From Antedon bifida (taxonomy: Eukaryota; Echinodermata; Crinoidea; Comatulida; Antedonidae), in NCBI GenBank assembly GCA_963402885.1, contig OY727101.1:8628917-8692916 (forward strand): a stretch of 64,000 bases of DNA. Reading direction: 5' to 3'. This document shows, one piece after another, positions 1,051 through 60,472 of this stretch (its first letter is position 1; the number at the start of each line of letters is the position of its first letter). Position numbers and translations under genes: made by a program. The notes beneath the pieces are model-generated. The model searched no databases, had not been told where the DNA came from, and saw only the letters and a list, made by a program, of their open reading frames with translations.

Positions 1051-1358
1051 TGTAATGTACCGATTTACAATACAAATAAGTGAGAGAGAGACAAGTTCTG
1101 TTATAGTTGAAAGCTAGCACTGAAGTGTTTATTCTTTATTCTACATCTACTATATATAATAACAATATCGGTAATGGGTAATTAATCTGTCAAGGTGGAA
1201 TGTTTAGTGGTCTCAGCAGAGGGGTCTACTTTAGCCATTAGTGACCATTAAGTAGCCAGGGTTATATAGAAGTGGGTTAACATAATATATATGGTAACAG
1301 GTGAAGGAAGTATAAATAATTGGTAGCAAGTAATATTAATCAAGTTCAATACATTACA
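1051..1358 (-). repeat. 3' LTR of Gypsy copy 1
   Basis: This 308 bp repeat begins TGTAATG and ends CATTACA. It is the downstream LTR with respect to the minus-strand element. It matches 6758-7067 except for a handful of substitutions and short indels. Confidence 0.92.
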
Positions 1359-1372
1359 TTCCCTCCCTTCTA
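1359..1372 (-). other. Polypurine tract of Gypsy copy 1
   Basis: Immediately inside the 3' LTR the minus strand reads AGAAGGGAGGGAA. This is the expected place and composition for the plus-strand primer of an LTR element. Confidence 0.7.
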
Positions 1373-1579
1373 TTATAAACAATTCTAAGCTATTTATTTA
1401 TAATTGAATCAAAGCAGCACTGTACTAAGTTATGGTTTAATAACACTTTAAATGTATATGGTATAATGCACTGTATAAAGTAAAACATAAGATCAACATT
1501 TTAAATTGTCCAGTAATAATGTCCATAAAAGTTTCTATATTTCAGTTATTAAAAATGTCCATATCTTTCCGGCGGTTTT

Positions 1580-2970
1580 CTATCGCGAGTAAGGTATACT
1601 CTTCGCTGAGCAGTAATAGACTGTGCTTCGACAGTCGATTGTGATGTTTCCACTGTTCAGATTTGGATTAATGAGCATTGGAGGTAATTGTGGAGGATCA
1701 TCTTTGTTTGTAAGCTGTTTATCCTGAGTTTGAACAGGCCTATAACGCTTCCTGATATGGTCGGCATGACGACGACAAACTCGTCCATCTTCTAGTTTTG
1801 TCTTGAATGAGATGCGACCGGATTTTAATATTATTGTTCCGGGTAACCATTTCAGATTTTGTCCTCTAAAGTTCTTTATATACACCTACTCTCCTTCTGC
1901 AAAAGTGCGTTCTTTGCATGACGATCATGGGCTAATTTCTGTTTTTCAAGTTGAGTGATAACACGATCTGCTTGATAAGGGTGTAAAAGATCAAAATGCG
2001 TTTTCAATTTTCGGCCATTCAGTAATTCTGCTGGTGTTTTGCCAGTTGTGCTATGAGGTGTATTTCTATATTTAAATAGGAATCTTGAATTGTTTTTTTT
2101 TTTAACTTTATTTGGTAATCAAGGTTAAAAAACAATAAAATATAATACATAGAAAATAGAAAAACAATTGCACGGAAAAAACAGGCCTTGATTACAAGGA
2201 ATGCCAAGAAAAGTTAAAAACTTATTTCCACTTGGGTCCTAAAAACAAGAAACTGATAACAAGAACATACAAATTACAACATAAGAATCTTGCGACTTTT
2301 GTTTCGATATATCCATCTTTCGTACGTTTCATTGTTTCTTTAAATGTGCGTACAGCACGTTCCGCAAGACCATTCGATGATGGGTGATATGGGGCTGTTA
2401 AAGAATGTCTTATTCCATTTCGCTTTACGAATGTATGAAATTCATCACTGGTGAAACATGTTCCATTGTCGGATACTATTTTATCTGGCAATCCATGCGA
2501 TGCAAATATAAGCCTGAGCTTATCCACTGTGGTATTTGTCGTTGAGGAATTTACCGGAATTACCTCAAGCCATTTTGAGTATGCATCGTATTAAAAACAT
2601 TTTTCCAATAAATGGTCCAGCACAGTCGATATTTAATCGTGACCATGGTCTATTTGGCCAATTCCATGGGTGCAATGGTGCTTTAGGTGGTAAAGTTTGA
2701 TTGGATTGGCATGTATCGCACTGCTTTGATATGTCTTTGTCCATATTAGGCCACCATAACGAATCCCGAGCAAAACTTTTCATTCTGACAATTCCAGTAT
2801 GACCGTCATGTAGTGCTTGTAGCAACTGTTTTCTACCAGGCTGTGGAACAACAATTCTATTTTCCCACAAAATACATCCATCTTGTGTAGAGAGTTCTCT
2901 TTGTCAGATCCATCCAATATGGTTGCAAGTTTTCAATTTTTGGATTAGTATTGGGCCAACCCTTTTCAAT
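1580..2970 (-). pseudogene. Gypsy copy 1 integrase region
   Basis: Integrase-type remains of the Gypsy element. Visible parts are an N-terminal zinc-binding pattern (HDGHTG and later CDTCQ), the catalytic-core signature SDNGTCF, and HPSSNGLAERAVRTFK, followed by a C-terminal region near 1580-1885. A nested retroposon (2088-2285) interrupts it. It is broken, and the family function is DNA integration. Confidence 0.85.
2088..2285 (-). mobile_element. Nested poly-A retroposon in Gypsy copy 1
   Basis: About 198 bp flanked by a 7 bp target duplication AATCTTG (2081-2087 and 2286-2292). The + strand starts with a T-rich run, so the inserted strand is minus with a poly-A tail preceded by an AATAAAGTT-like end. 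It resembles the 3' end of a LINE, or a SINE sharing that tail. It is present at the same place in all three Gypsy copies. Confidence 0.75.
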
Positions 2971-2989
2971 GTAGTAAAGAACTCGAGAA

Positions 2990-3600
2990 AGTGTTGGATC
3001 TTTAACCGTCCAACCTTTAATATCTGCTGTGGAAACTGGAGATTGGTTCATTGGCTCCATCAATAGAACAGTTTCGGCAGGTTGTGGAATTGATTCTGGT
3101 TTTCCTGGCAATGGTAATCTGCTTAAGGCATCCGCATTGGCATGGGACTTTGGGACTTTCAGTTTGAATCTTAATGTATATTTGTATGTACCTAATTTCA
3201 GTGCCCAACGTTGGATTCTAGCTGATGCTTGGCTGGGCACAAGTCTGTCCTCATTAATAAGACCCAGCAATGGCTTATGGTCTGTTACCAATGTGAAATG
3301 TCTACCATAAATGTAAGACTGAAATCGCGTTACCCCGAAAACGCATGCCAAACCTTCTTTCTCAATTTGCGAATACTTTTTTTCCGCTTCTGCAAGTGTT
3401 CTAGATGCAAATGCGATTGGTCTTCCTGTACCGTCACTTTGTCGATGTGCTAACACAGCCCCAATTCCATATTGAGATGCATCACACGATAATATTATTT
3501 CCTTTTTTGGATCATAATGTGCAAGAGGAAAGTAGCAATTCCTTTGATTTATCAAAAGTAGATTGTTCTAAATTTGTCCAGTTCAAAGCTTTATCCTTAC
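2990..3600 (-). pseudogene. Gypsy copy 1 RNase H region
   Basis: The region contains [14 protein letters not shown], a REKEG-like segment and TDHKPLLGL, typical of the RNase H domain that follows reverse transcriptase in Ty3/Gypsy pol. In the family it degrades the RNA strand of the hybrid. It is part of the broken element. Confidence 0.87.
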
Positions 3601-4310
3601 GAAGTAAGGCATATAACAGAGCAATTAAGTGTGTGGATAAGTTTGGTAAAAACTTCATAATAAGATAATAATCCCAAATAAGCTCTCAGTTCTGTCAAGT
3701 TTTGAGACGCTGGAGCATCTTTAATTGCTCTCACTTTGGCGTTTGTGGGATGCAATCCCTCTTTGTCGATCAGGTGTCCCAAATAACCAACAGATTTAAC
3801 CATAAAAACACACTTACTCTTTTTTAGACGAAGTCCAGCATCTGCCAGTCGCTTTAGGACGGTTTCAAGAGTTTCGAAATGCTCAAAGTCATTCTTTCCT
3901 GTAATTAATATATCGTCCAGGTATACTGTAACACCTTTAACTCCTTGTAATAGTCCTTCCATGACATGCTGGAAAATCGCTGGTGCTGAAGAGACTCCAA
4001 ACGGCAACCGTGTATATTGTAAAGTCCCTTTTGAGTGTTGATTACAACATATTTTCGAGAATCTTTATCCAAGAGTAATTGTTGGTACGCTTGTGACATA
4101 TGTCCAATTTAGTAAATTTTTCTTCGGGGCAAAGGATACTGATCAACTTTGGCTGCTTTATTTACAGTAATTTTGTAGTCACCACAGATCCTAATGGTAG
4201 ATTTATCTGCCTTAAGTACCGGAACTATTGGTGCAGCCCAGTCTGAAAACTGTATAGGTTCAATAATGCCTTCTCGTTGTAAGCGATCAAGTTAGTCATC
4301 TACTTTCTGT
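3600..4310 (-). pseudogene. Gypsy copy 1 reverse transcriptase region
   Basis: The reverse transcriptase signature blocks are visible: SQAYQQLLLD, PFGVSSAPAIFQ, and the catalytic YLDDILITG, then GYLGHLIDKEG. The order and spacing are those of Ty3/Gypsy. It is part of the broken element. Confidence 0.9.
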
Positions 4311-4379
4311 CGCAAAGCATACGGAACATTTCTGGCTTTGCAAAATTTTGGCATTGTCTCTTTATCAACATACATTTTT

Positions 4380-5029
4380 GCTTCAGTACCCTTAAGGGTA
4401 CCTAGTTCATCTTTAAATATTTCTTGGTATTTACCAAGCAGTGAACTTAAATCTAATTGGTTTATTACCTTGATTTGTTGCCAGTCCAACTTTATAAACT
4501 GAAGCCAGTCTCGACCAATTAGGGTAGGTCCATCTGTTCGCACAATCGTTAACGGTAATATTGTAGTAGTACTCTGGTATGTAACTTCAGCATTAATTTT
4601 ACCCAAAACATCCATTATTTGTCCAGTGTACGTACGTAGCTTAACTGACGAAGGTTCAAGTTTTCTTTCAGGCCATAATTGCCTAAATTTCGTCTGCGAC
4701 ATTATTGATACCGAGGCTCCTGTGTCAATTTCCATTTCAGTATCCAAACCATCTAACAGTATCTTAACTTTCATAGGTGGAGGACTAGACGTGGTCTTTA
4801 TTCCAAATAATTCTTCATACATTTCTGTAGCTATGTTGCTTGGTTTATCTGCCACAACATTGTTAACTGTTTGGGGCTTCCCCTTCTTTTTGCTAAGACA
4901 AACAGATTGAATGTGTCCTACCTTGTTACAATAATGGCAAGTTGTTTGCTTAAAATAACATTTGTCTGGCAAATGGTTATTCTTTCCACAGCGAAAACAT
5001 GGTTTCGACTTCTTATTTGTATTTGACAT
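4380..5029 (-). pseudogene. Gypsy copy 1 nucleocapsid zinc knuckles and protease
   Basis: Two CCHC-type knuckles (CFRCGKNNHLPDKC and CHYCNKVGHIQSVC) are followed by an aspartic protease signature DTGASVSIM and a TLIGRDWL segment. This is the normal link between gag and pol in the family. Confidence 0.88.
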
Positions 5030-5030
5030 A

Positions 5031-5700
5031 ACTAGTTTTTATGGCTTCATAAGATTATGTTAACACAATATATGTGCATAAATTGCAATATTATAGCATA
5101 ATTATCGAATTTTAAAAAGTGGACATTTTTGCCATTTTTCGAAATAATTCCTTTTTTCCCCCGCATTGAAATTTTCGAAAAATGGCAAAATTTCGACCCT
5201 TTTATTTGTTTACATAACTAGTTACTATGGCTCTATAAGATGATGTTAACACAATATATATACATAAATGACAATATAATAGCATAATTATTGGATATTA
5301 AAAAGTGAACATTTGCAAATTTTCGAAAAATTCCTTCGGTCCCCAGCAGTGAAATTTTCGAAAAATGGCCAAATACTTACCCTTTTATTTTTTGACTTAA
5401 CTAGTTTTTATGTCTCCATAAGATGATGTTAACACAATATATGTGCATAAATTGCAATATTATAGCATACTTATTGAATTTTAAAAAGAAGAAAATTTGG
5501 CAATTTTTCTAAAAAATTCCTTTGGTCCCCCGCAGTGAATTTTTCGAAAAATGTCAAAATTTAGACCTTTTTATTTTTTTACACAACTAGTTACTATGGC
5601 TTTATAAGATGATGTTACCATAATATATGTGCATAAATGGCAATATTATAGCATAATTCTTGAAGTTTAAAAAGTGGAAATTTTGGACATTTTTTGAACA
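5031..5700. repeat. About 185 bp minisatellite, 3.6 copies, inside Gypsy copy 1
   Basis: Repeats begin at about 5031, 5217, 5400 and 5586 (periods 186, 183, 186), each opening ACTAGTT(T/A)(T/C)TATG. Each copy contains inverted arms around TTTTCGAAAA separated by a C-rich loop. The array separates the gag-coding side from the zinc-knuckle side of the element. It is not normal for this position in Gypsy elements. The same array is present in copies 2 and 3. Confidence 0.88.
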
Positions 5701-5709
5701 ATTCCGTAA

Positions 5710-6740
5710 ATTTTGACTTCTTTTTGTAAGCAATTTTGTTTACATTTTCAACTGCAGCTGCAGAGGTTGGCTGCGCCAGATCTCTTACATTTCTTGTTGC
5801 AGTTTCGATGCTAGTTGCAATTTCAACAGCTTTTTCCAGTGTCAGTGCTTTTTCTGCCAAAAGACCAAATTCCGTGATTACGGACGCCAAAAACTAGATG
5901 ATCTCGTAACATTGTATTGAGCGAGGCTCCAAAGTTACAGAATTCTGCCATCGATCGCAGCGATGTCATAAATTCAGGCACTGTTTCATTATCACGTCGA
6001 AAGCGTGAGTTGAATTTGTATCGCTGTACAATTTCACTAGGCACATGGACTGTGATGCCCATTCATAGCTGTTACCAGCTCATCGAATGTTTTATCCTTG
6101 GGTTTTTCTGGTGTAACCAAATTTCGTAAAAGCTTATAAGATGATGGGCCAATAACTGTTAACAGTGTTGCTTGTTTCTTCTCCTCTGTAGTAATTTCTT
6201 TTGCCTTGAAATACAAGTTACTTACTTACTTATTTGTTTTCATAGCTATTCCCAATATTGGGGACATTTCGCCGTCATTGACATTATGTTGATATAGCAC
6301 AACTTTTCTTAATTTTATGAGAGACGTTAATTTTGATGAGAAGGTCATGGAACACTAATTAATTTTAAAAACAACTAAAAACCTGGGACCTGTAACCCTG
6401 ACGGGTACTCTCCCTCCGGGTCAAAGGGATCCCGAAACTCATCGGTGGGCAGGGGCGCTCATCTCCCTGTTCAGGACTATTCCTGATGATTACCCAACCT
6501 ATTTACATTTAAAATTAAAATCAAACATCAAGACATAACTTAATCAACTTAATGACTACTGGACATAGTAGTTATTGTCTTCTATAAAAGATGCTGGAAG
6601 CACTTCCTTATATAGTCTTCTTCTTCTGTCTGTTGTTCTTCTTCTTCCTCAGACTCTAGTCTAAAGTCTAAACGCTCAACAAACTGTGACCAATCTTCCC
6701 TTCCTTCAATAAATTCTTCAATTTTGCCAATAAGGGCCAT
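5710..6740 (-). pseudogene. Gypsy copy 1 gag region
   Basis: Gag-like remains start 17 nt inside the 5' LTR with an ATG at 6740 (MALIGKIEEF). A later part contains a DHLVFGVRN segment typical of metazoan Gypsy capsid. It is interrupted by a nested insertion at about 6216-6666 and borders the minisatellite. It is broken. Confidence 0.75.
6216..6666 (-). mobile_element. Nested retroposon 3' end in Gypsy copy 1
   Basis: About 450 bp absent from normal gag. On the minus strand it ends with an AAGTAAGTAAGTAA tail (+ strand TTACTTACTTACTT at about 6218-6231), typical of a LINE or its SINE partner. The body contains a GC-rich stretch around GACCCGGAGGGAGAGTACCC. Exact edges and target duplication are unclear. 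It is shared by all three Gypsy copies. Confidence 0.6.
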
Positions 6741-6757
6741 TCTCGTCGCCACTGTAG
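6741..6757 (-). other. Primer-binding region of Gypsy copy 1
   Basis: The minus strand just inside the 5' LTR reads CTACAGTGGCGACGAGA before the gag ATG. The TGG start is typical of a tRNA primer-binding site. The tRNA is not identified. Confidence 0.5.
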
Positions 6758-7067
6758 TGTAATGTACCGATTTACAATACAAATAAGTGAGAGAGAGACA
6801 AGTTCTGTTATAGTTGAAAGCTAGCACTGAAGTGTTTATTCTTTATTCTACATTTACTATATATTATAATAACAATATCGGTAATGGGTAATTAATCTGT
6901 CAAGGTGGAATGTTTAGTGGTCTAAGCAGAATGTCTACTTTAGCCATTAGTGACCATTAAGTAGCCAGGGTTATATAGAAGTGGGTTAACATAATATATA
7001 TGGTAACAGGTGAAGGAAGTTTAAATAATTGGTAGCAAGTAATATTAATCAAGTTCAATACATTACA
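6758..7067 (-). repeat. 5' LTR of Gypsy copy 1
   Basis: This 310 bp repeat matches 1051-1358, begins TGTAATG and ends CATTACA. CTTTT follows as the target duplication. Confidence 0.92.
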
Positions 7068-7088
7068 CTTTTCATTTAATCTTAACAG

Positions 7089-7279
7089 TAAAGTTAATCT
7101 TTCTGATTGCGTGGAGATGGATTGTGATGCATTTAAGAAAGCAATGATCAGAGATGAAGATGGTGGAATTCTAGGAGGATCACGGCCTGGTTATGTTATT
7201 CCTGATTCTCCATACGAGTGGGATAGAGATCCGAGACGTGGACTTAAAATTCCTTATGATGAAAAATGTCCACATAAAG
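7089..7279 (+). CDS. PKHD1L1-like exon, copy A1 (DCVEMDCDAFKK)
   Basis: This 191 nt exon continues phase 2 from exon 743-860 across the intron that holds the Gypsy element. It reads SKVNLSDCVEMDCDAFKKAM, then a region with DEDGGILGGSRPGYVIP, then YDEKCPHKG. This parallels the family segment with VNL, DCDAxKK, RDLDGS and HKG. It ends in phase 1 at a GTTGGT donor. In intact relatives the next exon begins II and contains INGPQDHGWC; here that exon is absent. Confidence 0.8.
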
Positions 7280-7319
7280 GTTGGTTGTCTGCTTTAATGT
7301 TGAATTTTAGCTTTTGTAA

Positions 7320-7985
7320 ACTGTGATTCTTCCCTAAATCTTTCCTCCTATTAAAGTTGCACTCTTGAAACAAGACCAGTCCATTCACCGAAAATTTTTA
7401 CGGATATGTACAGGAAGATTATTCCATAAGGTTGATGCTCTATAGTTAAACATTCTCTTTCCATAAATATTGTTCCATGCTGGAACATTTAGAGTTTTTG
7501 TTGATTGACTTCTTGTATTTTTTGTGTGAAAAGTGTCCATAAATTTGAATAGATTTGTTAAATAAGATGGTGCTAAACCCTGTAGGCATTTAAATAGCAT
7601 AATTAATAAATCATTTTCCCATCTGTCATGGACACTCTTCCATTTTAGTGAGGACATCAATTCTGTTATAGGGGTGTACATATCAGCATAAAGAATGATT
7701 CTAGCTACTCTATTTTGAAGTACTTGAAGACGATTAACAAGTTCTAAGTTACAATTTGACCAAACATTACTACAGTAATCAAAACAAGGTAATACTATTG
7801 CATTAGCAAGTAGTCTTAAAGCAAAATTTGGAATATAATATCTTAATCTACGAATAATACCGATACGTTGTGATACTCTAGAAGCTACTTGTTCAACATG
7901 CTGTTTCCATGACATAAGTGAATCAAATGTATTAGTCCAAGATATTTAAAATTGTCAACTCTTTCGACATCATTGCCATTAATAG
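7320..7985 (-). mobile_element. LINE fragment (C-terminal part of ORF2) in copy A1
   Basis: On the minus strand, 7385-7915 reads MSWKQHVEQVASRVSQRIGI, RRLRYYIPNF, LPCFDYCSNVWSNC and ASTLWNNLPVHIRK. The 5' continuation to about 7980 has VDNFKYLGL. This is the region after the reverse transcriptase domain in CR1/L2/Jockey-type non-LTR elements. The element is 5'-truncated and begins directly against the host segment WVPEDPN. It replaces the conserved INGPQDHGWC exon and the first part of the region encoding IWVPEDPN, so insertion was accompanied or followed by a host deletion. It is shared by A1, A2 and A3. Confidence 0.85.
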
Positions 7986-16639: not shown

Positions 16640-17980
16640 TGTCCCCAATTAAACGGTTCTACTATAATATAAATGTAGGCCTACACTATAATAGCTTATG
16701 AGAAGAAAAATTTACTACACAAATGTTATAATGTAAAAGAAAAATACTAGTATCAAGTTTTTTTTTTAAAATAACTTAGGCGCACTTTTAGTAAAAAAAA
16801 ATGTTGTAAATGTATAGTAGAACCATAGGCATCATATTTTGAAAAATAAAAAATGTCCAAATCATCTAAAATTCTAGTAAATTACCCAATTTTTATACTA
16901 AAGATAAATAAATACATATAGAATTATTGTACCAAATTTGAACAAAATTGAAGTTGGTTAAGTATTTTTCCACGATGGTTTTTGAATGATGTTTTTACAG
17001 TTTTATTTTATCCAAATAATACTAAATTTCTATCACTAATAAAAATCTAACTTTTCGATATACTGTATTACAATTTTGGAATTAAATACTCTTTTATGAG
17101 TGGAACACACTTATGCTATTAAATATTACTTAACTTTTTTTCCCCGTTATTATTTGAAACCTACGCGAAATAATAAGAGAGGACGCTGTTTTACTGGTAA
17201 TAGATATGGTTATTATGTGTTGTATTCTTCCGCTCGAGTATTCTTTAACCCCACAGACTACATCGCCCAGATAAATAGCGAGATCCTAAATATTTTTGTA
17301 TTCTTATATACTATAGGAAAGATGATTCCATTTTGCTAAAGGAACCTTTAGAAATACAATAGCTTTATTTATTTGCAGTTTATTCAACAAGAAACGGAAA
17401 CTAAATATCTAAATAAATAAAGTATAGACATAATGAATTAAATTAATAAGTACTTTTAGTACGAGAAAATGTATTATCAATGGGCAAAATGTGTAGCATT
17501 GATGCCATAAAAAAATAAATTGACGAGTATCGGTAAATATTAGGCTTAGCTCGTGGTTCAGTGTAGCGGAGGAAATTCACTTTAGCTGCGTATCCTTATT
17601 ACCACAACGCGAGAGAAATTGGCCTAACGGGTAGGCCTAGGACTTGTAGTGTGGGGGGCCTAGAAAGTCAAGCAGAGTGCCTCGGCCAACCTACGTTCCC
17701 TAGTAGGTAGAATGTTAATTTAGACCAGGCCATTTTTAAATAGGGCTGTATAGCGGAAATAGTTCTGGTGGTTCTACTTATATTTATTTGTATTAAATGA
17801 TTTACCAAATCCTATACTTATACTACCTTAACATAAGAATTAGTAATAAACTAATAATTACTTCTACGGGAAAATATTTTATATCGACGGGGCAAAAAAT
17901 ATCTGCATTCTTAAACAATAAGTTGACGAGTCTCAAAAAGTGTGGGCCTGCACGAACCTCCTGCGGGGAAGTTTGATTTC
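16640..17980. other. Intergenic spacer, nothing recognised
   Basis: AT-rich. Short open frames here do not resemble known proteins and are not flanked by coherent splice sites. Confidence 0.4.
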
Positions 17981-17983
17981 GGC

Positions 17984-18560
17984 CTAGCCTAGGCCTAGGC
18001 CTAGCTGGCCTATCCGTTGTATTGTATTGTATAGCAATACACATTTTATACTTAGCTAGGCCTAGGCCCCTAGCTAGTAGTTTTTTTATTGACATGTGGA
18101 AGGATGTCTTCGTATCAAATTAGCTTTGGATACAAATTGTTTTTTTTAAGGTAAAGTGGTTGCAACAATAGAATAGGCCTAGGCCTATCATAATAATAGG
18201 CCTAGGCCTAGTATTAGCTCTAGGCCTACTAGGCCTATAGTCTATTATAGCTCTAGGCCTAGTTAGGCTAGCTAGGCCTATATGACAGATCTGTTTTCTT
18301 CTTCTTTCTTTTATGGGAATGGGTTAGGCCTAGGCCTAAGGCCTAGCTAGGCTAGTATTATTACTATAAAGGCTATATCGTTAGTCTAGTATCAAGCTAG
18401 CCTAGGCCGAAGACCCTATATTCAATTAGGTTTTCTGTTGACAGCTTTCATTCTAAAAACTAGGAAATGTAATTTTGGTTTAAGGTTTATTTTTTTTAGG
18501 CCCAGCAGGCTAGCCTACAAGCTGGGACCTATCATCCTAGTATTGGCCTAGCCTATTTTA
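17984..18560. repeat. TAGGCCTA palindrome-rich tract 2, unit 1
   Basis: Blocks of overlapping TAGGCCTA occur at 17984-18010, 18055-18080, 18173-18275 and 18325-18355. In unit 2 the 3.0 kb element sits inside the equivalent tract. Confidence 0.8.
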
Positions 18561-26546: not shown

Positions 26547-27275
26547 TTCTCTCCCTTCTATTATAAACAATTCTAAGCTATTTATTTATAATTGAATCAA
26601 AGCAGCACTGTACTAAGTTATGGTTTAATAACACTTTAAATGTATATGGTATAATGCACTGTATAAAGTAAAACATAAGATCAACATTTTAAATTGTCCA
26701 GTAATAATGTCCATAAAAGTTTCTATATTTCAGTTATTAAAAATGTCCATATCTTTCCGGCGGTTTTCTATCGCGAGTAAGGTATACTCTTCGCTGAGCA
26801 GTAATAGACTGTGCTTCGACAGTCGATTGTGATGTTTCCACTGTTCAGATTTGGATTAATGAGCATTGGAGGTAATTGTGGAGGATCATCTTTGTTTGTA
26901 AGCTGTTTATCCTGAGTTTGAACAGGCCTATAACGCTTCCTGATATGGTCGGCATGACGACGACAAACTCGTCCATCTTCTAGTTTTGTCTTGAATGAGA
27001 TGCGACCGGATTTTAATATTATTGTTCCGGGTAACCATTTCAGATTTTGTCCTCTAAAGTTCTTTATATACACCTACTCTCCTTCTGCAAAAGTGCGTTC
27101 TTTGCATGACGATCATGGGCTAATTTCTGTTTTTCAAGTTGAGTGATAACACGATCTGCTTGATAAGGGTGTAAAAGATCAAAATGCGTTTTCAATTTTC
27201 GGCCATTCAGTAATTCTGCTGGTGTTTTGCCAGTTGTGCTATGAGGTGTATTTCTATATTTAAATAGGAATCTTG

Positions 27276-27473
27276 AATTGTTTTTTTTTTTAACTTTATT
27301 TGGTAATCAAGGTTAAAAAACAATAAAATATAATACATAGAAAATAGAAAAACAATTGCACGGAAAAAACAGGCCTTGATTACAAGGAATGCCAAGAAAA
27401 GTTAAAAACTTATTTCCACTTGGGTCCTAAAAACAAGAAACTGATAACAAGAACATACAAATTACAACATAAG
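27276..27473 (-). mobile_element. Nested poly-A retroposon in Gypsy copy 2
   Basis: Same insert as 2088-2285, flanked by AATCTTG (27269-27275, 27474-27480). Confidence 0.75.
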
Positions 27474-29930
27474 AATCTTGCGACTTTTGTTTCGATATAT
27501 CCATCTTTCGTACGTTTCATTGTTTCTTTAAATGTGCGTACAGCACGTTCCGCAAGACCATTCGATGATGGGTGATATGGGGCTGTTAAAGAATGTCTTA
27601 TTCCATTTCGCTTTACGAATGTATGAAATTCATCACTGGTGAAACATGTTCCATTGTCGGATACTATTTTATCTGGCAATCCATGCGATGCAAATATAAG
27701 CCTGAGCTTATCCACTGTGGTATTTGTCGTTGAGGAATTTACCGGAATTACCTCAAGCCATTTTGAGTATGCATCGTATTAAAAACATTTTTCCAATAAA
27801 TGGTCCAGCACAGTCGATATTTAATCGTGACCATGGTCTATTTGGCCAATTCCATGGGTGCAATGGTGCTTTAGGTGGTAAAGTTTGATTGGATTGGCAT
27901 GTATCGCACTGCTTTGATATGTCTTTGTCCATATTAGGCCACCATAACGAATCCCGAGCAAAACTTTTCATTCTGACAATTCCAGTATGACCGTCATGTA
28001 GTGCTTGTAGCAACTGTTTTCTACCAGGCTGTGGAACAACAATTCTATTTTCCCACAAAATACATCCATCTTGTGTAGAGAGTTCTCTTTGTCAGATCCA
28101 TCCAATATGGTTGCAAGTTTTCAATTTTTGGATTAGTATTGGGCCAACCCTTTTCAATGTAGTAAAGAACTCGAGAAAGTGTTGGATCTTTAACCGTCCA
28201 ACCTTTAATATCTGCTGTGGAAACTGGAGATTGGTTCATTGGCTCCATCAATAGAACAGTTTCGGCAGGTTGTGGAATTGATTCTGGTTTTCCTGGCAAT
28301 GGTAATCTGCTTAAGGCATCCGCATTGGCATGGGACTTTGTCAGTTTGAATCTTAATGTATATTTGTATGTACCTAATTTCAGTGCCCAACGTTGGATTC
28401 TAGCTGATGCTTGGCTGGGCACAAGTCTGTCCTCATTAATAAGACCCAGCAATGGCTTATGGTCTGTTACCAATGTGAAATGTCTACCATAAATGTAAGA
28501 CTGAAATCGCGTTACCCCGAAAACGCATGCCAAACCTTCTTTCTCAATTTGCGAATACTTTTTTTCCGCTTCTGCAAGTGTTCTAGATGCAAATGCGATT
28601 GGTCTTCCTGTACCGTCACTTTGTCGATGTGCTAACACAGCCCCAATTCCATATTGAGATGCATCACACGATAATATTATTTCCTTTTTTGGATCATAAT
28701 GTGCAAGTACTCTGCAGGAAAGTAGCAATTCCTTTGATTTATCAAAAGTAGATTGTTCTAAATTTGTCCAGTTCAAAGCTTTATCCTTACGAAGTAAGGC
28801 ATATAACAGAGCAATTAAGTGTGTTGGATAAGTTTGGTAAAAACTTCATAATAAGATAATAATCCCAAATAAGCTCTCAGTTCTGTCAAGTTTTGAGACG
28901 CTGGAGCATCTTTAATTGCTCTCACTTTGGCGTTTGTGGGATGCAATCCCTCTTTGTCGATCAGGTGTCCCAAATAACCAACAGATTTAACCATAAAAAC
29001 ACACTTACTCTTTTTTAGACGAAGTCCAGCATCTGCCAGTCGCTTTAGGACGGTTTCAAGAGTTTCGAAATGCTCAAAGTCATTCTTTCCTGTAATTAAT
29101 ATATCGTCCAGGTATACTGTAACACCTTTAACTCCTTGTAATAGTCCTTCCATGACATGCTGGAAAATCGCTGGTGCTGAAGAGACTCCAAACGGCAACC
29201 GTGTATATTGTAAAGTCCCTTTTGAGTGTTGATTACAACATATTTTCGAGAATCTTTATCCAAGAGTAATTGTTGGTACGCTTGTGACATATGTCCAATT
29301 TAGTAAATTTTTCTTCGGGGCAAAGGATACTGATCAACTTTGGCTGCTTTATTTACAGTAATTTTGTAGTCACCACAGATCCTAATGGTAGATTTATCTG
29401 CCTTAAGTACCGGAACTATTGGTGCAGCCCAGTCTGAAAACTGTATAGGTTCAATAATGCCTTCTCGTTGTAAGCGATCAAGTTAGTCATCTACTTTCTG
29501 TCGCAAAGCATACTGAACATTTCTGGCTTTGCAAAATTTTGGCATTGTCTCTTTATCAACATACATTTTTGCTTCAGTACCCTTAAGGGTACCTAGTTCA
29601 TCTTTAAATATTTCTTGGTATTTACCAAGCAGTGAACTTAAATCTAATTGGTTTATTACCTTGATTTGTTGCCAGTCCAACTTTATAAACTGAAGCCAGT
29701 CTCGACCAATTAGGGTAGGTCCATCTGTTCGCACAATCGTTAACGGTAATATTGTAGTAGTACTCTGGTATGTAACTTCAGCATTAATTTTACCCAAAAC
29801 ATCCATTATTTGTCCAGTGTACGTACGTAGCTTAACTGACGAAGGTTGCTTAAAATAACATTTGTCTGGCAAATGGTTATTCTTTCCACAGCGAAAACAT
29901 GGTTTCGACTTCTTATTTGTATTTGACATA

Positions 29931-44590: not shown

Positions 44591-44591
44591 T

Positions 44592-44910
44592 TCGGCCTAG
44601 CCTAGGCCTAGGCCTAGCTGGCCTATCCGTTGTATTGTATTGTATAGCAATACACTTTTTATACTTAGCTAGGCCTAGGCCCCTAGCTAGTAGTTTTTTT
44701 ATTGGCATGTGGAAGGATGTCTTCGTATCAAATTAGCTTTGGATACAAATTGTTTTTTTTAAGGTAAAGTGGTTGCAACAATAGAATAGGCCTAGGCCTA
44801 GGCCTATCATAATAATAGGCCTAGGCCTAGTATTAGCTCTAGGCCTACTAGGCCTATAGTCTATTATAGCTCTAGGCCTAGTTAGGCTAGCTAGGCCTAT
44901 ATGACAGATC
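44592..44910. repeat. TAGGCCTA-rich tract 2, unit 2
   Basis: Equivalent to 17984-18275. The tract resumes at 47948 after the 3.0 kb element. Confidence 0.8.
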
Positions 44911-44952
44911 TGTTTTCTTCTTCTTTCTTTTATGGGAATGGGTTACAAAAAT

Positions 44953-45635
44953 GTTCTATAGAATTCTATAAAAAAAAATTCTATAGAAGATCTATAGAAT
45001 TTTCTATAGATTTTCTATAAAGTTTTTTATAGAAACAATCTATAGAAATTCTATGGAAACTCTATGAAAACTCTATGGAAATTCTATAGATATTTCTATG
45101 GAAACTCTATGAAAATTCTATGAAAACTCTATGGAAACTCTATAAAAATTCTATGGAAACTCTATAAAAATTCTATGGAAACTCTATAAAAATTCTATGG
45201 AAACTCTATAAAAATTCTATAGAATTTCTATGGAAACTCTATAAAAATTCTATGGAAACTCTATAAAAATTCTATGGAAACTCTATAAAAATTCTATAGA
45301 ATTTCTATGGAAACTCTATAAATATTCTACGAAAACTCTATAAAAATTCTACGGAAACTCTATAAAAATTCTATGGAAACTCTATAAAAATTCTATGGAA
45401 ACTATAGAAATTCTATAGAAATTCTTTGGAAACTCTATAGAGATTCTATAGAAACTCTATAGAAATTATATAAAGCTCTATAGAAATTCTATGGAGACTC
45501 TAAAGAAATTCTATAGAAACTCTGTAAAAACTATAATAGGTCTATAGAAACTTTATAGAAATTATATAAAGCTCCATAGAAATTATATAGAGCTGTATAC
45601 AAATTCTATAACATTTTCTATAGAACTTTTATGAA
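44953..45635. repeat. 22 bp (2 x 11 bp) TTCTATAGAA-type array
   Basis: The regular core is GGAAACTCTATAAAAATTCT + AT, repeated in phase from about 45125 to 45400, with looser copies on both sides. Each 22-mer is two related 11-mers ending CTAT. The word TTCTATAGAA is itself a palindrome. The spacing is close to one helical turn per half unit. Confidence 0.85.
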
Positions 45636-46897
45636 AAAGTTTCACTTTTCTATAGAAACCCAACAACTTTCTATAGAAAATGAGTAGCCAAACAATGTTT
45701 ATTTTCTATGGGTGGTTGAGATCTTCAGCTTGAAATAAATACAAGTCCGCTATTAGACCTTCTTTCATGCGACAGCAAATCGTTTGTTAGGCATAGGCGA
45801 AAAGAGTACTGTAATAAAATCTAAAGTCAATTTTTCATCTGTTTCAGTGCGTACTGCAATTTATTGAAATATCAATAAAATATTTAGGATAACAATATAA
45901 AAACGAAATTACACATATACACATAAAAATATACTATTATACACTATTAAATATTGTTTTTGCAGTTGAATAACTAGTAGTTGGTTCGGTGTCTTTTATA
46001 TATATATTCTGGATTGTTTTGGTTGTACCTTGTGGGAAATAGGGATAATATCACTGTAAAAAGATCAAGGTTTTGGATAAATTAAATAACTAATTTAGAA
46101 TTAAAAATATAAAACTAATAATTACACATCAGCATACACTTTACCGGTCAGTTATGAGTTGGAGTAATGAATAAAAGAATTAATAACAAGGTGCAACAAA
46201 ATATACAAAACATAAAAACTATTCAGTATCTTCTTTTTGCTGTGGCTCCTGTGCGCTAACCTTCTGTGTTTTTTTCATCTCTTTTACTTTGTTGGCCAAT
46301 GACTGTCGCAGCAAAAAAACAGCTTTACAGTATAATCTGGTAACGAGATGGCGAGATCTATAAAACAATAGAATAAGGACAGAATTGTTTATTATCATGA
46401 TATAGGCTTAAAACTTGTTGTTTTTATTTAAGCAATGAAGTAGGTCTTTTCTTTTGAAGGCACAAAACGAATTAAATTCTTAATTAGCTAGGCCTAGCTT
46501 CCCTAACCAATCCCAAGTCACCATATGTAGGCCTAGTAGTAGTAGGCCTTACTTTAGCTGGCTTGTTGGCCTGATTCTCATAGGCCTACTACTATTTAGG
46601 CCAAAAAGCATAGATTCTTTATTATGTAACTCATATATGGTATGTGTAAGCTAGGTTAATAATACAATACTAATTAACCAACCTTTGGCTAAGACTGTAC
46701 ATGATTCAAAGTATTCATCTTTCTTCAAATAAAATTAGAGGCTAGCTTGCTTGGCTGCTACACAATTAAAATCCTCCCGCCGATTTTCTTCTTGCAGTTG
46801 CACCAAGCTATCCCATGAGGCACTGCATGCACGGACCAATCCATTATGGCTTGGAGTAGTGTTTGTTAAAACCAGGGAGGTGTTAATTAACGACTCC

Positions 46898-47681
46898 CAT
46901 TAATTAAACAATGAAAAATGATAATAGTTGATGATATACAGTAAGCAAAAGTTGATATAATTCAAATACACAGTATTGATAATTAGTTCATGTTAATATT
47001 ACAAATGTGTTCTATAGAATTAAATAAAAATATTTTTATAGAATTTATATCAACTATTCTATAGAATTTCTATAGAATGATTCTATAAAATCTCTATTAA
47101 AATTCTATAGAGATTTCATAGAGTTTATATAGAAAAGCGTTGTATTGTTTGTCTATATTTTGTCCAAGTTAATTAGATTTTCAACAGTCTATAAAGAAAA
47201 ATCATATTCCTTTACATGCAAAATTGTAAAAGGTATTATTGTATTGCTATTGGCAAAATCAAAATGTAACCCCCATTAAGCAATAAAAATTATAATAATT
47301 GATGATATACAGTAAGCAAAAGTTGATATAATTCAAGTACACAATGATAATTGGTTCATGTTAATATCCCTTACAAATTTGTTCAAATTTTGTCAAATCA
47401 AATAAATAGAATTTATATCAAATATTCTATAGAATTTGTTTATAGATTTTCTATAGAATGATTGAATAAAATCTCTATCAAAATTCTATAGAGATTTCAT
47501 AGAGTTTCTACAGAAAAGTGTTATATTGTTTTTCTGTATTTTGTCCAGATTTTAATTTGATTTTCAACAATCTATAAACTGGTAAAGAAAAATCCTATTC
47601 TTTTACATGCAAAATTGCTTATCATATAATTTTTTGTAAGCGATGAAAAAAAAAATTGTTATTGGCAAAATAAAAATGTAA
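46898..47681. repeat. Internal direct duplication in 3.0 kb element
   Basis: 46898-47273 and 47274-47681 share GATGATATACAGTAAGCAAA, ATTCTATAGAGATTTCATAG and TTTACATGCAAAATTG in the same order, with moderate divergence. Confidence 0.8.
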
Positions 47682-47947
47682 TTATCAATCCACTTCATTC
47701 CATGATCTTTCAATAATGGTGAGACAATGTATTAATCACATATATAAATTCATAAATAAATTCTATAGAAATTCTATAAAATTATAGGTTCTATAGAAAA
47801 AAAGAAACATTCTATAGACACAAAATAAATTCTATAGAATTTGAAATATGTTTCTATAGAAATTTTGTACTTCTATAGAATACCATAGAGCTCTATAAAA
47901 TGTTCTATAGAACTCTATAGAATTCTATAGAACTTTTTTGTAAGGGA

Positions 47948-49183
47948 GGCCTAGGCCTAAGGCCTAGCTAGGCTAGTATTATTACTATAAAGGCTATATC
48001 GTTAGTCTAGTATCAAGCTAGCCTAGGCCGAAGACCCTATATTCAATTAGGTTTTCTGTTGACAGCTTTCATTCTAAAAACTAGGAAATGTAATTTTGGT
48101 TTAAGGTTGATTTTTTTTAGGCCCAGCAGGCTAGCCTACATGCTGGGACCTATCATCCTAGTATTGGCCTAGCCTATTTTATACCAATACCTAATAAATA
48201 CAGTACAATCTATTCGCATGTCCTATATTAAACACCAAACCAAAGACTATTCAGGGTTATATGTAACAAATACGATGTAAATAGGCCTATATGCTTTTTA
48301 TAAATCAACTTCAGTTCCAAAAAGTCAATATTTATATAGTTAAAAACAAGGAATATTTAAATAACGCTAACTGTTACGCCGTACACATCTTTTGATCGAT
48401 TCAATAAGCAATATTTTATAATTCGAGATCTGTGCTGACTTGTCTGTGTTCTTGGGTGATTCTTCAGACAAGACATAAAGTTGTTGGTCACTGTCTGTAC
48501 GACCTAATAATTAATAATTAATTAAAAAATTAGTAGAATTGTTATTGTTTCTTCAGAAGAAAAAAATCTCAAAATGACCAACAGAAGACGACTGTGTTTT
48601 GAAGCATCACATATTAGAAGACAAGACCCAGATGGACATTTACTGTATTCTATTTGAAGGAAAAGGTAATCTTATAATAGGCTTACTAATATTTTATGCA
48701 GTGTAGTGAAATTCAGGCATCACTGCATCAGTGGAAAATTCAGAATGTTAACACCAGACCATGATTTACTGGCTAATTGTTAAAAAGTGATATATTGTGA
48801 TATATGCAGTAGTTATTTGAAAAAAATCATAAATCATTAATTAAAAATACTGTTGCAGCCAATGGCGCAATTGCAGATAATTCTTCTTTTTATAAAAAAA
48901 AGTGCAAAAAAGAATTATAAGGCTTCCATTTCAGCAGGGCTTGATTTTTGTTTTTGTTGTGACTAGCCCACTGGGCAAGATAACTTAACTTAATTATATT
49001 AAGCCTATAGTTTAAGTAAATGCTAAATTAAATTATAAATAAACAACTATAAAATAAAATTATTTTTAATTTACACTAAAATATGTTTTAATGTTAATAA
49101 TAAATTAAGTACAAAGTACTGTAAAATATTTCATCCCAATTGTTAATTAACTTAATCAACAGGTAAGTATAATGTTCCCTTAG
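47948..49183. other. Flank upstream of copy B2, no firm gene
   Basis: Equivalent to 18320-19562. It begins with a short TAGGCCTA tract and is AT-rich after that. Confidence 0.4.
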
Positions 49184-56796: not shown

Positions 56797-57514
56797 TTCC
56801 CTCCCTTCTATTATAAACAATTCTAAGCTATTTATTTATAATTGAATCAAAGCAGCACTGTACTAAGTTACACTTTAAATGTATATGGTATAATGCACTG
56901 TATAAAGTAAAACATAAGATCAACATTTTAAATTGTCCAGTAATAATGTCCATAAAAGTTTCTATATTTCAGTTATTAAAAATGTCCATATCTTTCCGGC
57001 GGTTTTCTATCGCGAGTAAGGTATACTCTTCGCTGAGCAGTAATAGACTGTGCTTCGACAGTCGATTGTGATGTTTCCACTGTTCAGATTTGGATTAATG
57101 AGCATTGGAGGTAATTGTGGAGGATCATCTTTGTTTGTAAGCTGTTTATCCTGAGTTTGAACAGGCCTATAACGCTTCCTGATATGGTCGGCATGACGAC
57201 GACAAACTCGTCCATCTTCTAGTTTTGTCTTGAATGAGATGCGACCGGATTTTAATATTATTGTTCCGGGTAACCATTTCAGATTTTGTCCTCTAAAGTT
57301 CTTTATATACACCTACTCTCCTTCTGCAAAAGTGCATTCTTTGCATGACGATCATGGGCTAATTTCTGTTTTTCAAGTTGAGTGATAACACGATCTGCTT
57401 GATAAGGGTGTAAAAGATCAAAATGCGTTTTCAATTTTCGGCCATTCAGTAATTCTGCTGGTGTTTTGCCAGTTGTGCTATGAGGTGTATTTCTATATTT
57501 AAATAGGAATCTTG

Positions 57515-57712
57515 AATTGTTTTTTTTTTTAACTTTATTTGGTAATCAAGGTTAAAAAACAATAAAATATAATACATAGAAAATAGAAAAACAATTGCAC
57601 GGAAAAAACAGGCCTTGATTACAAGGAATGCCAAGAAAAGTTAAAAACTTATTTCCACTTGGGTCCTAAAAACAAGAAACTGATAACAAGAACATACAAA
57701 TTACAACATAAG
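57515..57712 (-). mobile_element. Nested poly-A retroposon in Gypsy copy 3
   Basis: Same insert as 2088-2285, between AATCTTG at 57508-57514 and 57713-57719. Confidence 0.75.
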
Positions 57713-60472
57713 AATCTTGCGACTTTTGTTTCGATATATCCATCTTTCGTACGTTTCATTGTTTCTTTAAATGTGCGTACAGCACGTTCCGCAAGACCAT
57801 TCGATGATGGGTGATATGGGGCTGTTAAAGAATGTCTTATTCCATTTCGCTTTACGAATGTATGAAATTCATCACTGGTGAAACATGTTCCATTGTCGGA
57901 TACTATTTTATCTGGCAATCCATGCGATGCAAATATAAGCCTGAGCTTATCCACTGTGGTATTTGTCGTTGAGGAATTTACCGGAATTACCTCAAGCCAT
58001 TTTGAGTATGCATCGTATTAAAAACATTTTTCCAATAAATGGTCCAGCACAGTCGATATTTAATCGTGACCATGGTCTATTTGGCCAATTCCATGGGTGC
58101 AATGGTGCTTTAGGTGGTAAAGTTTGATTGGATTGGCATGTATCGCACTGCTTTGATATGTCTTTGTCCATATTAGGCCACCATAACGAATCCCGGGCAA
58201 AACTTTTCATTCTGACAATTCCAGTATGACCGTCATGTAGTGCTTGTAGCAACTGTTTTCTACCAGGCTGTGGAACAACAATTCTATTTTCCCACAAAAT
58301 ACATCCATCTTGTGTAGAGAGTTCTCTTTGTCAGATCCATCCAATATGGTTGCAAGTTTTCAATTTTTGGATTAGTATTGGGCCAACCCTTTTCAATGTA
58401 GTAAAGAACTCGAGAAAGTGTTGGATCTTTAACCGTCCAACCTTTAATATCTGCTGTGGAAACTGGAGATTGGTTCATTGGCTCCATCAATAGAACAGTT
58501 TCGGCAGGTTGTGGAATTGATTCTGGTTTTCCTGGCAATGGTAATCTGCTTAAGGCATCCGCATTGGCATGGGACTTTGTCAGTTTGAATCTTAATGTAT
58601 ATTTGTATGTACCTAATTTCAGTGCCCAACGTTGGATTCTAGCTGATGCTTGGCTGGGCACAAGTCTGTCCTCATTAATAAGACCCAGCAATGGCTTATG
58701 GTCTGTTACCAATGTGAAATGTCTACCATAAATGTAAGACTGAAATCGCGTTACCCCGAAAACGCATGCCAAACCTTCTTTCTCAATTTGCGAATACTTT
58801 TTTTCCGCTTCTGCAAGTGTTCTAGATGCAAATGCGATTGGTCTTCCTGTACCGTCACTTTGTCGATGTGCTAACACAGCCCCAATTCCATATTGAGATG
58901 CATCACACGATAATATTATTTCCTTTTTTGGATCATAATGTGCAAGTACTCTGCAGGAAAGTAGCAATTCCTTTGATTTATCAAAAGTAGATTGTTCTAA
59001 ATTTGTCCAGTTCAAAGCTTTATCCTTACGAAGTAAGGCATATAACAGAGCAATTAAGTGTGTTGGATAAGTTTGGTAAAAACTTCATAATAAGATAATA
59101 ATCCCAAATAAGCTCTCAGTTCTGTCAAGTTTTGAGACGCTGGAGCATCTTTAATTGCTCTCACTTTGGCGTTTGTGGGATGCAATCCCTCTTTGTCGAT
59201 CAGGTGTCCCAAATAACCAACAGATTTAACCATAAAAACACACTTACTCTTTTTTAGACGAAGTCCAGCATCTGCCAGTCGCTTTAGGACGGTTTCAAGA
59301 GTTTCGAAATGCTCAAAGTCATTCTTTCCTGTAATTAATATTATCGTCCAGGTATACTGTAACACCTTTAACTCCTTGTAATAGTCCTTCCATGACATGC
59401 TGGAAAATCGCTGGTGCTGAAGAGACTCCAAACGGCAACCGTGTATATTGTAAAGTCCCTTTTGAGTGTTGATTACAACATATTTTCGAGAATCTTTATC
59501 CAAGAGTAATTGTTGGTACGCTTGTGACATAATATGTCCAATTTAGTAAATTTTTCTTCGGGGCAAAGGATACTGATCAACTTTGGCTGCTTTATTTACA
59601 GTAATTTTGTAGTCACCACAGATCCTAATGGTAGATTTATCTGCCTTAAGTACCGGAACTATTGGTGCAGCCCAGTCTGAAAACTGTATAGGTTCAATAA
59701 TGCCTTCTCGTTGTAAGCGATCAAGTTAGTCATCTACTTTCTGTCGCAAAGCATACGGAACATTTCTGGCTTTGCAAAATTTTGGCATTGTCTCTTTATC
59801 AACATACATTTTTGCTTCAGTACCCTTAAGGGTACCTAGTTCATCTTTAAATATTTCTTGGTATTTACCAAGCAGTGAACTTAAATCTAATTGGTTTATT
59901 ACCTTGATTTGTTGCCAGTCCAACTTTATAAACTGAAGCCAGTCTCGACCAATTAGGGTAGGTCCATCTGTTCGCACAATCGTTAACGGTAATATTGTAG
60001 TAGTACTCTGGTATGTAACTTCAGCATTAATTTTACCCAAAACATCCATTATTTGTCCAGTGTACGTACGTAGCTTAACTGACGAAGGTTCAAGTTTTCT
60101 TTCAATAATTGCCTAAATTTCGTCTGCGACATTATTGATACCGAGGCTCCTGTGTCAATTTCCATTTCAGTATCCAAACCCTCTAACAGTATCTTAACTT
60201 TCATAGGTGGAGGACTAGACGTGGTCTTTATTCCAAATAATTCTTCATACATTTCTGTAGCTATGTTGCTTGGTTCATCGCTTGGCTCATCTGCCACAAC
60301 ATTTTTAACTGTTTGGGGCTTCCCCTTCTTTTTGCTAAGACAAACAGATTGAATGTGTCCTACCTTGTTACAATAATGGCAAGTTGTTTGCTTAAAATAA
60401 CATTTGTCTGGCAAATGGTTATTCTTTCCACAGCGAAAACATGGTTTCGACTTCTTATTTGTATTTGACATA

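Follow-up and report, generated by a model that had tools for sequence, protein, structure and literature searches.

The 3-kb stretch at positions 44943-47946 of the window, which is the whole 64-kb stretch of DNA that was analysed (C14:8628917-8692916), is a real, recently mobile, non-coding DNA transposon. With a probability of about 0.87, it arose by internal deletion from an animal-type CACTA (EnSpm/TRC) cut-and-paste transposon and is non-autonomous. The original prediction of a non-autonomous transposon was supported: the copies are dispersed and their ends coincide, their target duplications are 2 bp long, and perfect empty sites were found. Its suggestion of an undescribed family, with termini that it could assign to no superfamily, was not supported at the level of the superfamily, since CCC ends, the 2-bp duplication and a relative that encodes Transposase_21 led to the animal CACTA/TRC elements. 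The superfamily of the element is already known and, as a transposon family, it is ordinary.

Structure of the window copy

The host genome that was scanned consisted of 315.6 Mb in 27 contigs. The window contains tandem paralogous units, each some 25-30 kb in length, and in unit 2 a block of approximately 3.0 kb (44943-47946) splits sequence that runs unbroken through position 18326 in unit 1. The relevant features of the window were as follows:

44943-47946, plus strand: non-autonomous element, very probably of CACTA/TRC type, window copy; length about 3.0 kb, without the left terminal CCC; coincident ends, target-site duplications and empty sites
44943-44970, plus strand: left terminal inverted repeat, CCC missing (TTACAAAAATGTTCTATAGAATTCTATA)
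44954-45678, no strand: left subterminal array, 11-bp tandem repeat with 10 exact TTCTATAGAA
46222-46329, minus strand: 36-aa probable relic, similar to the C-terminus encoded by the C14 relative's BEN-domain gene
47010-47134, no strand: right subterminal block 1, TTCTATAGAA-type sites
47406-47516, no strand: right subterminal block 2, within the second copy of a direct repeat
47741-47934, no strand: right subterminal block 3, adjoining the terminus
47916-47946, minus strand: right terminal inverted repeat, end ...CTTTTTTGTAAGGG
47947-47948, plus strand: remaining (right) copy of the AG target-site duplication
18318-18345, plus strand: unit 1 empty site for the window insertion; the duplicated AG is 18326-18327
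18343-18344, minus strand: empty site of the independent insertion L012 (paralogous unit, C14:8.07 Mb); joined flanks equal window 18318-18367, 50/50
44591-44640, plus strand: empty site of a further independent insertion, L016/L017 (other paralogous units), 50/50

The inverted ends of 28 bp were present as predicted, with one difference in 28, and the true right end was located at 47946 (GGG), three bases beyond the predicted 47943. The left array contains about 60 units of 11 bp (44976-45636), and the element also carries a direct repeat of roughly 340 bp (46903-47226 and 47275-47617). There were 22 exact copies of TTCTATAGAA in the 64-kb window, compared to 0.24 expected, a number that was reached in none of 100 shuffles; all were inside the element, 10 near the left end and 12 near the right end. 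The palindromic motif that had been proposed is therefore real and far above chance. The claim that it saturates the whole element applied to the two end regions, which are filled with it, but not to the middle 1.3 kb, where no exact copy was found. A repeated subterminal motif at both ends, a trait of plant CACTA elements, is present in the window element. The reported lack of a coding frame was nearly right, the exception being the 36-aa minus-strand stretch, a probable relic.

Minus-strand retrotransposon pieces were also observed in the tandem units (window 1580-5029, 26768-29929 and 57007-60471), where unit 1 gave matches to protease and RNase H, and unit 3 one to reverse transcriptase and another, below the cut-off, to protease; the unit 2 region was about 99% identical to those of units 1 and 3.

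Unit 1 reads AATGGGTTAGGCC at the insertion site. Clean insertion with a duplicated AG predicts the left junction AATGGGTTAG/CCCTTACAAAAA, whereas the junction seen was AATGGGTTACAAAAA, with 7 bp between two TTA triplets gone; the right junction, GTAAGGG/AGGCC, was intact. The left CCC is absent from the window copy and from its six array sisters, and was probably lost through a 7-bp TTA/TTA microhomology deletion, a route read from these sequences. Since the same left junction is found in the window copy and its six sisters, insertion and deletion most simply predate the amplification of the unit. Loss of the left CCC probably made the window copy immobile, and it would since have multiplied passively along with the tandem unit. 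A 3-bp GGG duplication, which was hinted at by the window copy alone, was rejected because other copies carry CCC on the left.

Copies, target duplications and empty sites

With 151 bp of the core as query, at least 30 core copies were identified in the 316-Mb genome; the left 158 bp gave at least 324 matches, many of which were shifted matches within the array. The core copies represent about 23 insertions, with seven belonging to one amplified insertion and two to a duplicated pair that has the same flanks (L016/L017). The seven form a tandem array on C14 with a spacing of 28.7-34.1 kb and a left junction common to all; about 22 other insertions are spread over 10 contigs. The description of the element as specific to unit 2 held in so far as unit 1 is empty at the site, but six further places downstream on C14 have the same insertion and, outside the window, it was contradicted by the insertions elsewhere in the genome.

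Of the 39 loci that were fetched (L009-L047, of which L017 duplicates L016), 21 end CCCTTACAAAAA...TTTTTGTAAGGG, as complete copies do, or nearly so (CCC and GGG). Six, the array loci, were without the left CCC, L034 had a damaged left end, and in 11 the stretch that was fetched lacked one end or both. An identical 2-bp duplication flanked 20 of 21 two-ended insertions, and a 3-bp duplication flanked none of them; shuffled flanks gave a mean of 2.7 and a maximum of 10 of 21 with a 2-bp duplication (10000 trials). This count took in L048, which is the full stretch of L015, and left out the duplicate L017, the array copy L011 and L034; L015, L020, L029 and L035-L047 were not entered. The insertion without a clean duplication, L021, lies in a TATA run (AA/TA); when joined, its flanks match the window only with 5 errors. 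The duplicated sequences were not confined to TA or AT, as AG, CT, TG, GT, CA, CG, TT and GG were also observed. The genome-wide search proposed with the original prediction thus found a multi-copy family with coincident ends and defined its target duplications as 2 bp.

The joined flanks of L012 and L016 were identical to uninterrupted window DNA at 50/50 bases, and those of L016 also matched unit 1 at 17978-18027 (50/50). The L012 insertion is in the opposite orientation, 17 bp from the insertion site of the window copy. Because these flanks rejoin in window DNA, the same family struck paralogous copies of the region. In the right part of the element (1.05 kb), L010, L012 and L027 were 100% identical to the window copy and the others down to about 93%; the presence of near-identical copies at different places indicates that part of the family moved recently.

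Three independent insertions (the window copy, L012 and L016/L017) occurred within about 340 bp in paralogous units. This cluster, at window 17978-18367 and 44591-47988, is located in GGCCTA-rich DNA, possibly a preferred target. Solo ends at L056:62-86 (25 bp) and L053:4942-4981 (40 bp) match the family termini and could have been left behind by aborted excision.

No intact autonomous element with CCCTTACAAAAA ends, and no intact helper, was found in the genome. The 7.9-kb locus L048 proved to be a 3-kb copy with two further inserts; an element of roughly 4 kb with the ends AGTCCAGTCAATC...GATTGACTGGACT is nested on its reverse strand (element positions about 3734-7800). L029 contains a nested insertion (1297-4001) with an integrase-like ORF, which was judged to be Polinton-like solely by reading its frames. 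L020 continues into sequence to which no other fetched copy has a match. The lone ends L052-L057 are end fragments adjoining other sequence. In L035/L049 (C1) the left array is followed by ORFs, three of which were scanned and gave no Pfam match, and no right end with one error or fewer was found in 11 kb. L050 and L051 have only the outermost end in common with the family. On C7 (12.3-18.0 Mb, L050) there were 20 ends of the form CCCTTACAAAAAAT(G/T)TTCTATAG, 19 of them on the minus strand, over 5.7 Mb; the flank TATACTA is common to L050 and L051 (C16), and this is a different repeat that is confined to one region. L059 and L060 belong to other Transposase_21 families and have no exact TTCTATAGAA; L060 has a 740-aa Transposase_21 ORF, from another CACTA-type family, and behind it a 164-bp tandem repeat (L060:5918-7245). 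An autonomous relative between the same ends, as had been envisaged, was therefore not found, but a related element on C14 has similar ends and Transposase_21.

The coding relative, its BEN-domain gene and the superfamily

This relative was detected through L047 (C14), which was caught by the array search approximately 3.3 kb from one of the six genomic Transposase_21 matches. It spans C14:9543021-9552883 (9863 bp), has an AA/AA duplication, and is bounded by CCCGTAAGAAAAAAATCTATAGAATTT and ...TTTCTATAGAATTCTATCATTCTACGGG, with the ends CCCGTAAG.../...CTACGGG. Its first 26 bases were identical to those of the family at 20/26 positions, a value equalled by none of 100000 shuffles, and the palindrome is at the same distance from the left end as in the family. 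There were 3 and 2 exact copies of TTCTATAGAA near the two ends (0.02 expected each) and none in the 8.3-kb middle. The plus strand carries a Transposase_21 exon (PF02992, 41.3 bits, cut-off 28.6). A BEN-domain exon is located on the minus strand, between the left array and the Transposase_21 exon; this match was marginal, 0.6 bits over the cut-off (PF10523, 23.8 bits, cut-off 23.2, E 5.3e-5). The coding parts are in separate frames. The C14 element is a relative of the family, not a demonstrated helper. An IS1595-like transposase fragment (PF12762; L047+L058, 10141-10440, minus strand) overlaps the right end of the relative and lies just outside it.

According to the available part of the account by DeMarco et al. 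(PMC1636069), the TRC/CACTA elements in Schistosoma, Tribolium and Aedes end in CCC and are flanked by 2-bp direct repeats. Both features were found in the present family, the terminal inverted repeats of which start with CCC and the target duplications of which are 2 bp, and this combination places the family in the CACTA/EnSpm superfamily. Transposase_21 (tnp2) is absent from the element and present in the C14 relative, which has similar, not identical, ends. This CACTA/TRC family was not found in print in the open-licence PMC literature; a Repbase entry may exist. In the same literature, CCCTTACAAAA gave no transposon paper by title, and among the papers listed for CTATAGAA with transposons none was on the motif by title.

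When the C14 BEN fragment was compared to the genome there were three matches: its own locus, a copy on C9 that has decayed (67% identity, 4 stops) and, more weakly, a sequence on C16 (39%). The C9 locus is a decayed relative of the left half of the C14 element, with array remnants and one exact TTCTATAGAA beside the BEN gene. The probable relic in the window element is a minus-strand stretch (CKAVFLLRQSLANKVKEMKKTQK...) that extends to a stop, about 1.3 kb from the left end of the element; in the C14 relative the C-terminal BEN exon is likewise on the minus strand, at 0.8 kb from the left end. The relic matched the C14 BEN sequence over 27 aa (33% identity, score 47; reached by none of 20000 shuffles) and the C9 copy with a score of 45 (reached by 9 of 20000), in a shuffle test that was run after the match had been noticed. 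By tblastn the match had an E-value of 0.011 without composition correction (44 peptides compared) and, among the matches listed for these peptides, at least three that were presumably due to chance had better E-values. The relic gave 30 genome matches, which coincided with the 30 core copies of the family. On these comparisons, the 36-aa stretch is likely to be a relic of the C-terminus of a BEN gene, which points to an origin of the element by internal deletion from a CACTA-type parent with such a gene.

These data can be accommodated in a model in which a CACTA-type transposase, supplied in trans, would cut at the CCC ends and an accessory protein would bind the TTCTATAGAA palindromes and join the two ends together. 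The palindromic motif near the ends would probably be a docking platform for a helper protein, perhaps the BEN-domain protein encoded by the coding relative. An element-encoded BEN-domain protein would be the likeliest accessory protein because Drosophila BEN-solo proteins bind 10-bp palindromes as homodimers. It had been proposed that the arrays are transposase binding sites; this is plausible, but by analogy with TNPA in En/Spm an accessory protein is more likely to be the binder. TNPA is element-encoded, binds the En/Spm subterminal motif and is needed for transposition, and the subterminal-motif binders of plant CACTA elements vary between families, as stated in the available part of PMC2613891. 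Insv of Drosophila recognises TCCAATTGGA and its variants; as homodimers, BEN-solo factors bind sites that are palindromic (PMC6911014; further accounts in PMC6317261 and PMC7764960, all as available in part). A tentative and, in our judgement, rather doubtful extension is that an animal CACTA lineage adopted a BEN protein for its ends, in the role of TNPA, to which it is unrelated, and on an Insv-type 10-bp palindrome; the element would then be a parasite of that system, and its arrays a dense BEN platform with sites about one helical turn apart.

When the C14 BEN fragment was compared to solved structures, its best matches, both weak, were to 4ix7 (RE55538p, E 0.35) and 4x0g (Bsg25A, E 0.41), followed by two unrelated reductases at E 0.56-0.57. 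We take 4ix7 to be Insv and 4x0g to be Elba1.

There is about an even chance that the element is of the same CACTA-type origin but that its arrays are bound by the transposase or a host protein, or are a satellite grown by slippage, and that the BEN gene is a passenger. The 11-bp period of the left array, and the fact that its length often differs by multiples of 11 bp between copies, are what slippage would give, but the 12 exact right-side palindromes are spread out and form no single tandem run. The lack of an exact TTCTATAGAA in L059 and L060 is also consistent with this alternative, as is the lack of a C14 BEN match there (tblastn, E 0.1), although the fetched stretches may not span these elements. 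In contrast, the diverged C14 element has the same palindrome near each of its ends, and the distance from the left end is equal. Furthermore, of 18 BEN matches elsewhere in the genome, 2 were no more than 6 kb away from any of the 36 CACTA transposase matches, compared to 0.03 expected, and 6 of 20000 random placements reached two such pairs; the 6-kb distance was picked after the match lists had been seen, and the C14 pair is outside the 18. In L063 the transposase exons and the BEN match are on opposite strands. They are on the same strand in L062, where the BEN match (C8:23202368) was below the cut-off and was not recovered by tblastn with the C14 BEN fragment.

It is improbable that the transposase comes from another superfamily with 2-bp duplications, such as ISL2EU, Mirage or a Tc1/mariner-like group. 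ISL2EU and Mirage make 2-bp duplications, and no helper with identical ends was found here, but sequences other than TA and AT also occur as target duplications and the sole coding relative found with similar ends has Transposase_21. Tc1/mariner was rejected on the varied duplications, as opposed to a strict TA. The target duplication of piggyBac and Kolobok is TTAA, and both were rejected on the 2-bp duplications of varied sequence. The combination of CCC ends with a 2-bp duplication, as reported for animal CACTA elements (PMC1636069, available part), also argues for the CACTA assignment. That the stretch is no transposon but a segmental or satellite part of the tandem unit is highly improbable: seven copies are part of a tandem array and the flanks of 6 of the 24 loci compared match the window (paralogous units), but the other 18 do not match, about 22 other insertions are found on 10 contigs with coincident ends and target duplications, and the empty sites refute it.

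Comparison with known systems

In the open-licence PMC literature that was searched, no account was found of a binder of animal CACTA subterminal repeats, nor, in the parts available, of a BEN protein in an animal CACTA element (PMC5704228 was not relevant). A BEN gene together with a BEN-solo-type palindromic end motif in a CACTA-type element makes the question of the end binder directly testable. A eukaryotic BEN end reader, if true, would join work on CACTA elements with work on the BEN-like fold of Tn3, in whose bacterial transposase the domain that reads the inverted repeat has such a fold (PMC9579193, available part).

Among animal elements, SmTRC1 of Schistosoma mansoni and the TRC elements of Tribolium castaneum and Aedes aegypti have, as here, terminal inverted repeats that start with CCC, a 2-bp duplication and truncated copies, and they have Transposase_21 in the coding member, which is matched here by the C14 relative (PMC1636069). 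The present family differs in its terminal repeat sequence and its dense palindromic subterminal arrays, and in having a BEN-domain gene in a coding relative, for which there is no mention in the available part of that account. In plants, En/Spm and Tgmt* have a short terminal inverted repeat and many short subterminal motif copies at both ends, as does the present element, and their deleted copies that keep the ends are movable in trans; their terminal repeat, however, starts with CACTA and Tgmt* makes a 3-bp duplication. TNPA and TNP1 are not called BEN proteins in the part of PMC2613891 that was available. The motif here is itself a 10-bp palindrome. It has the size and symmetry of the Insv site TCCAATTGGA, but the centres differ (AATT against TATA). 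Insv and Elba1 are host chromatin proteins, whereas the BEN domain described here is in a transposon relative. A parallel to the proposed role is DBD1 of Tn3 TnpA, a BEN-like fold that reads transposon inverted repeats; it is bacterial and is part of the transposase itself, whereas the BEN protein here would be a separate one (PMC9579193, available part).
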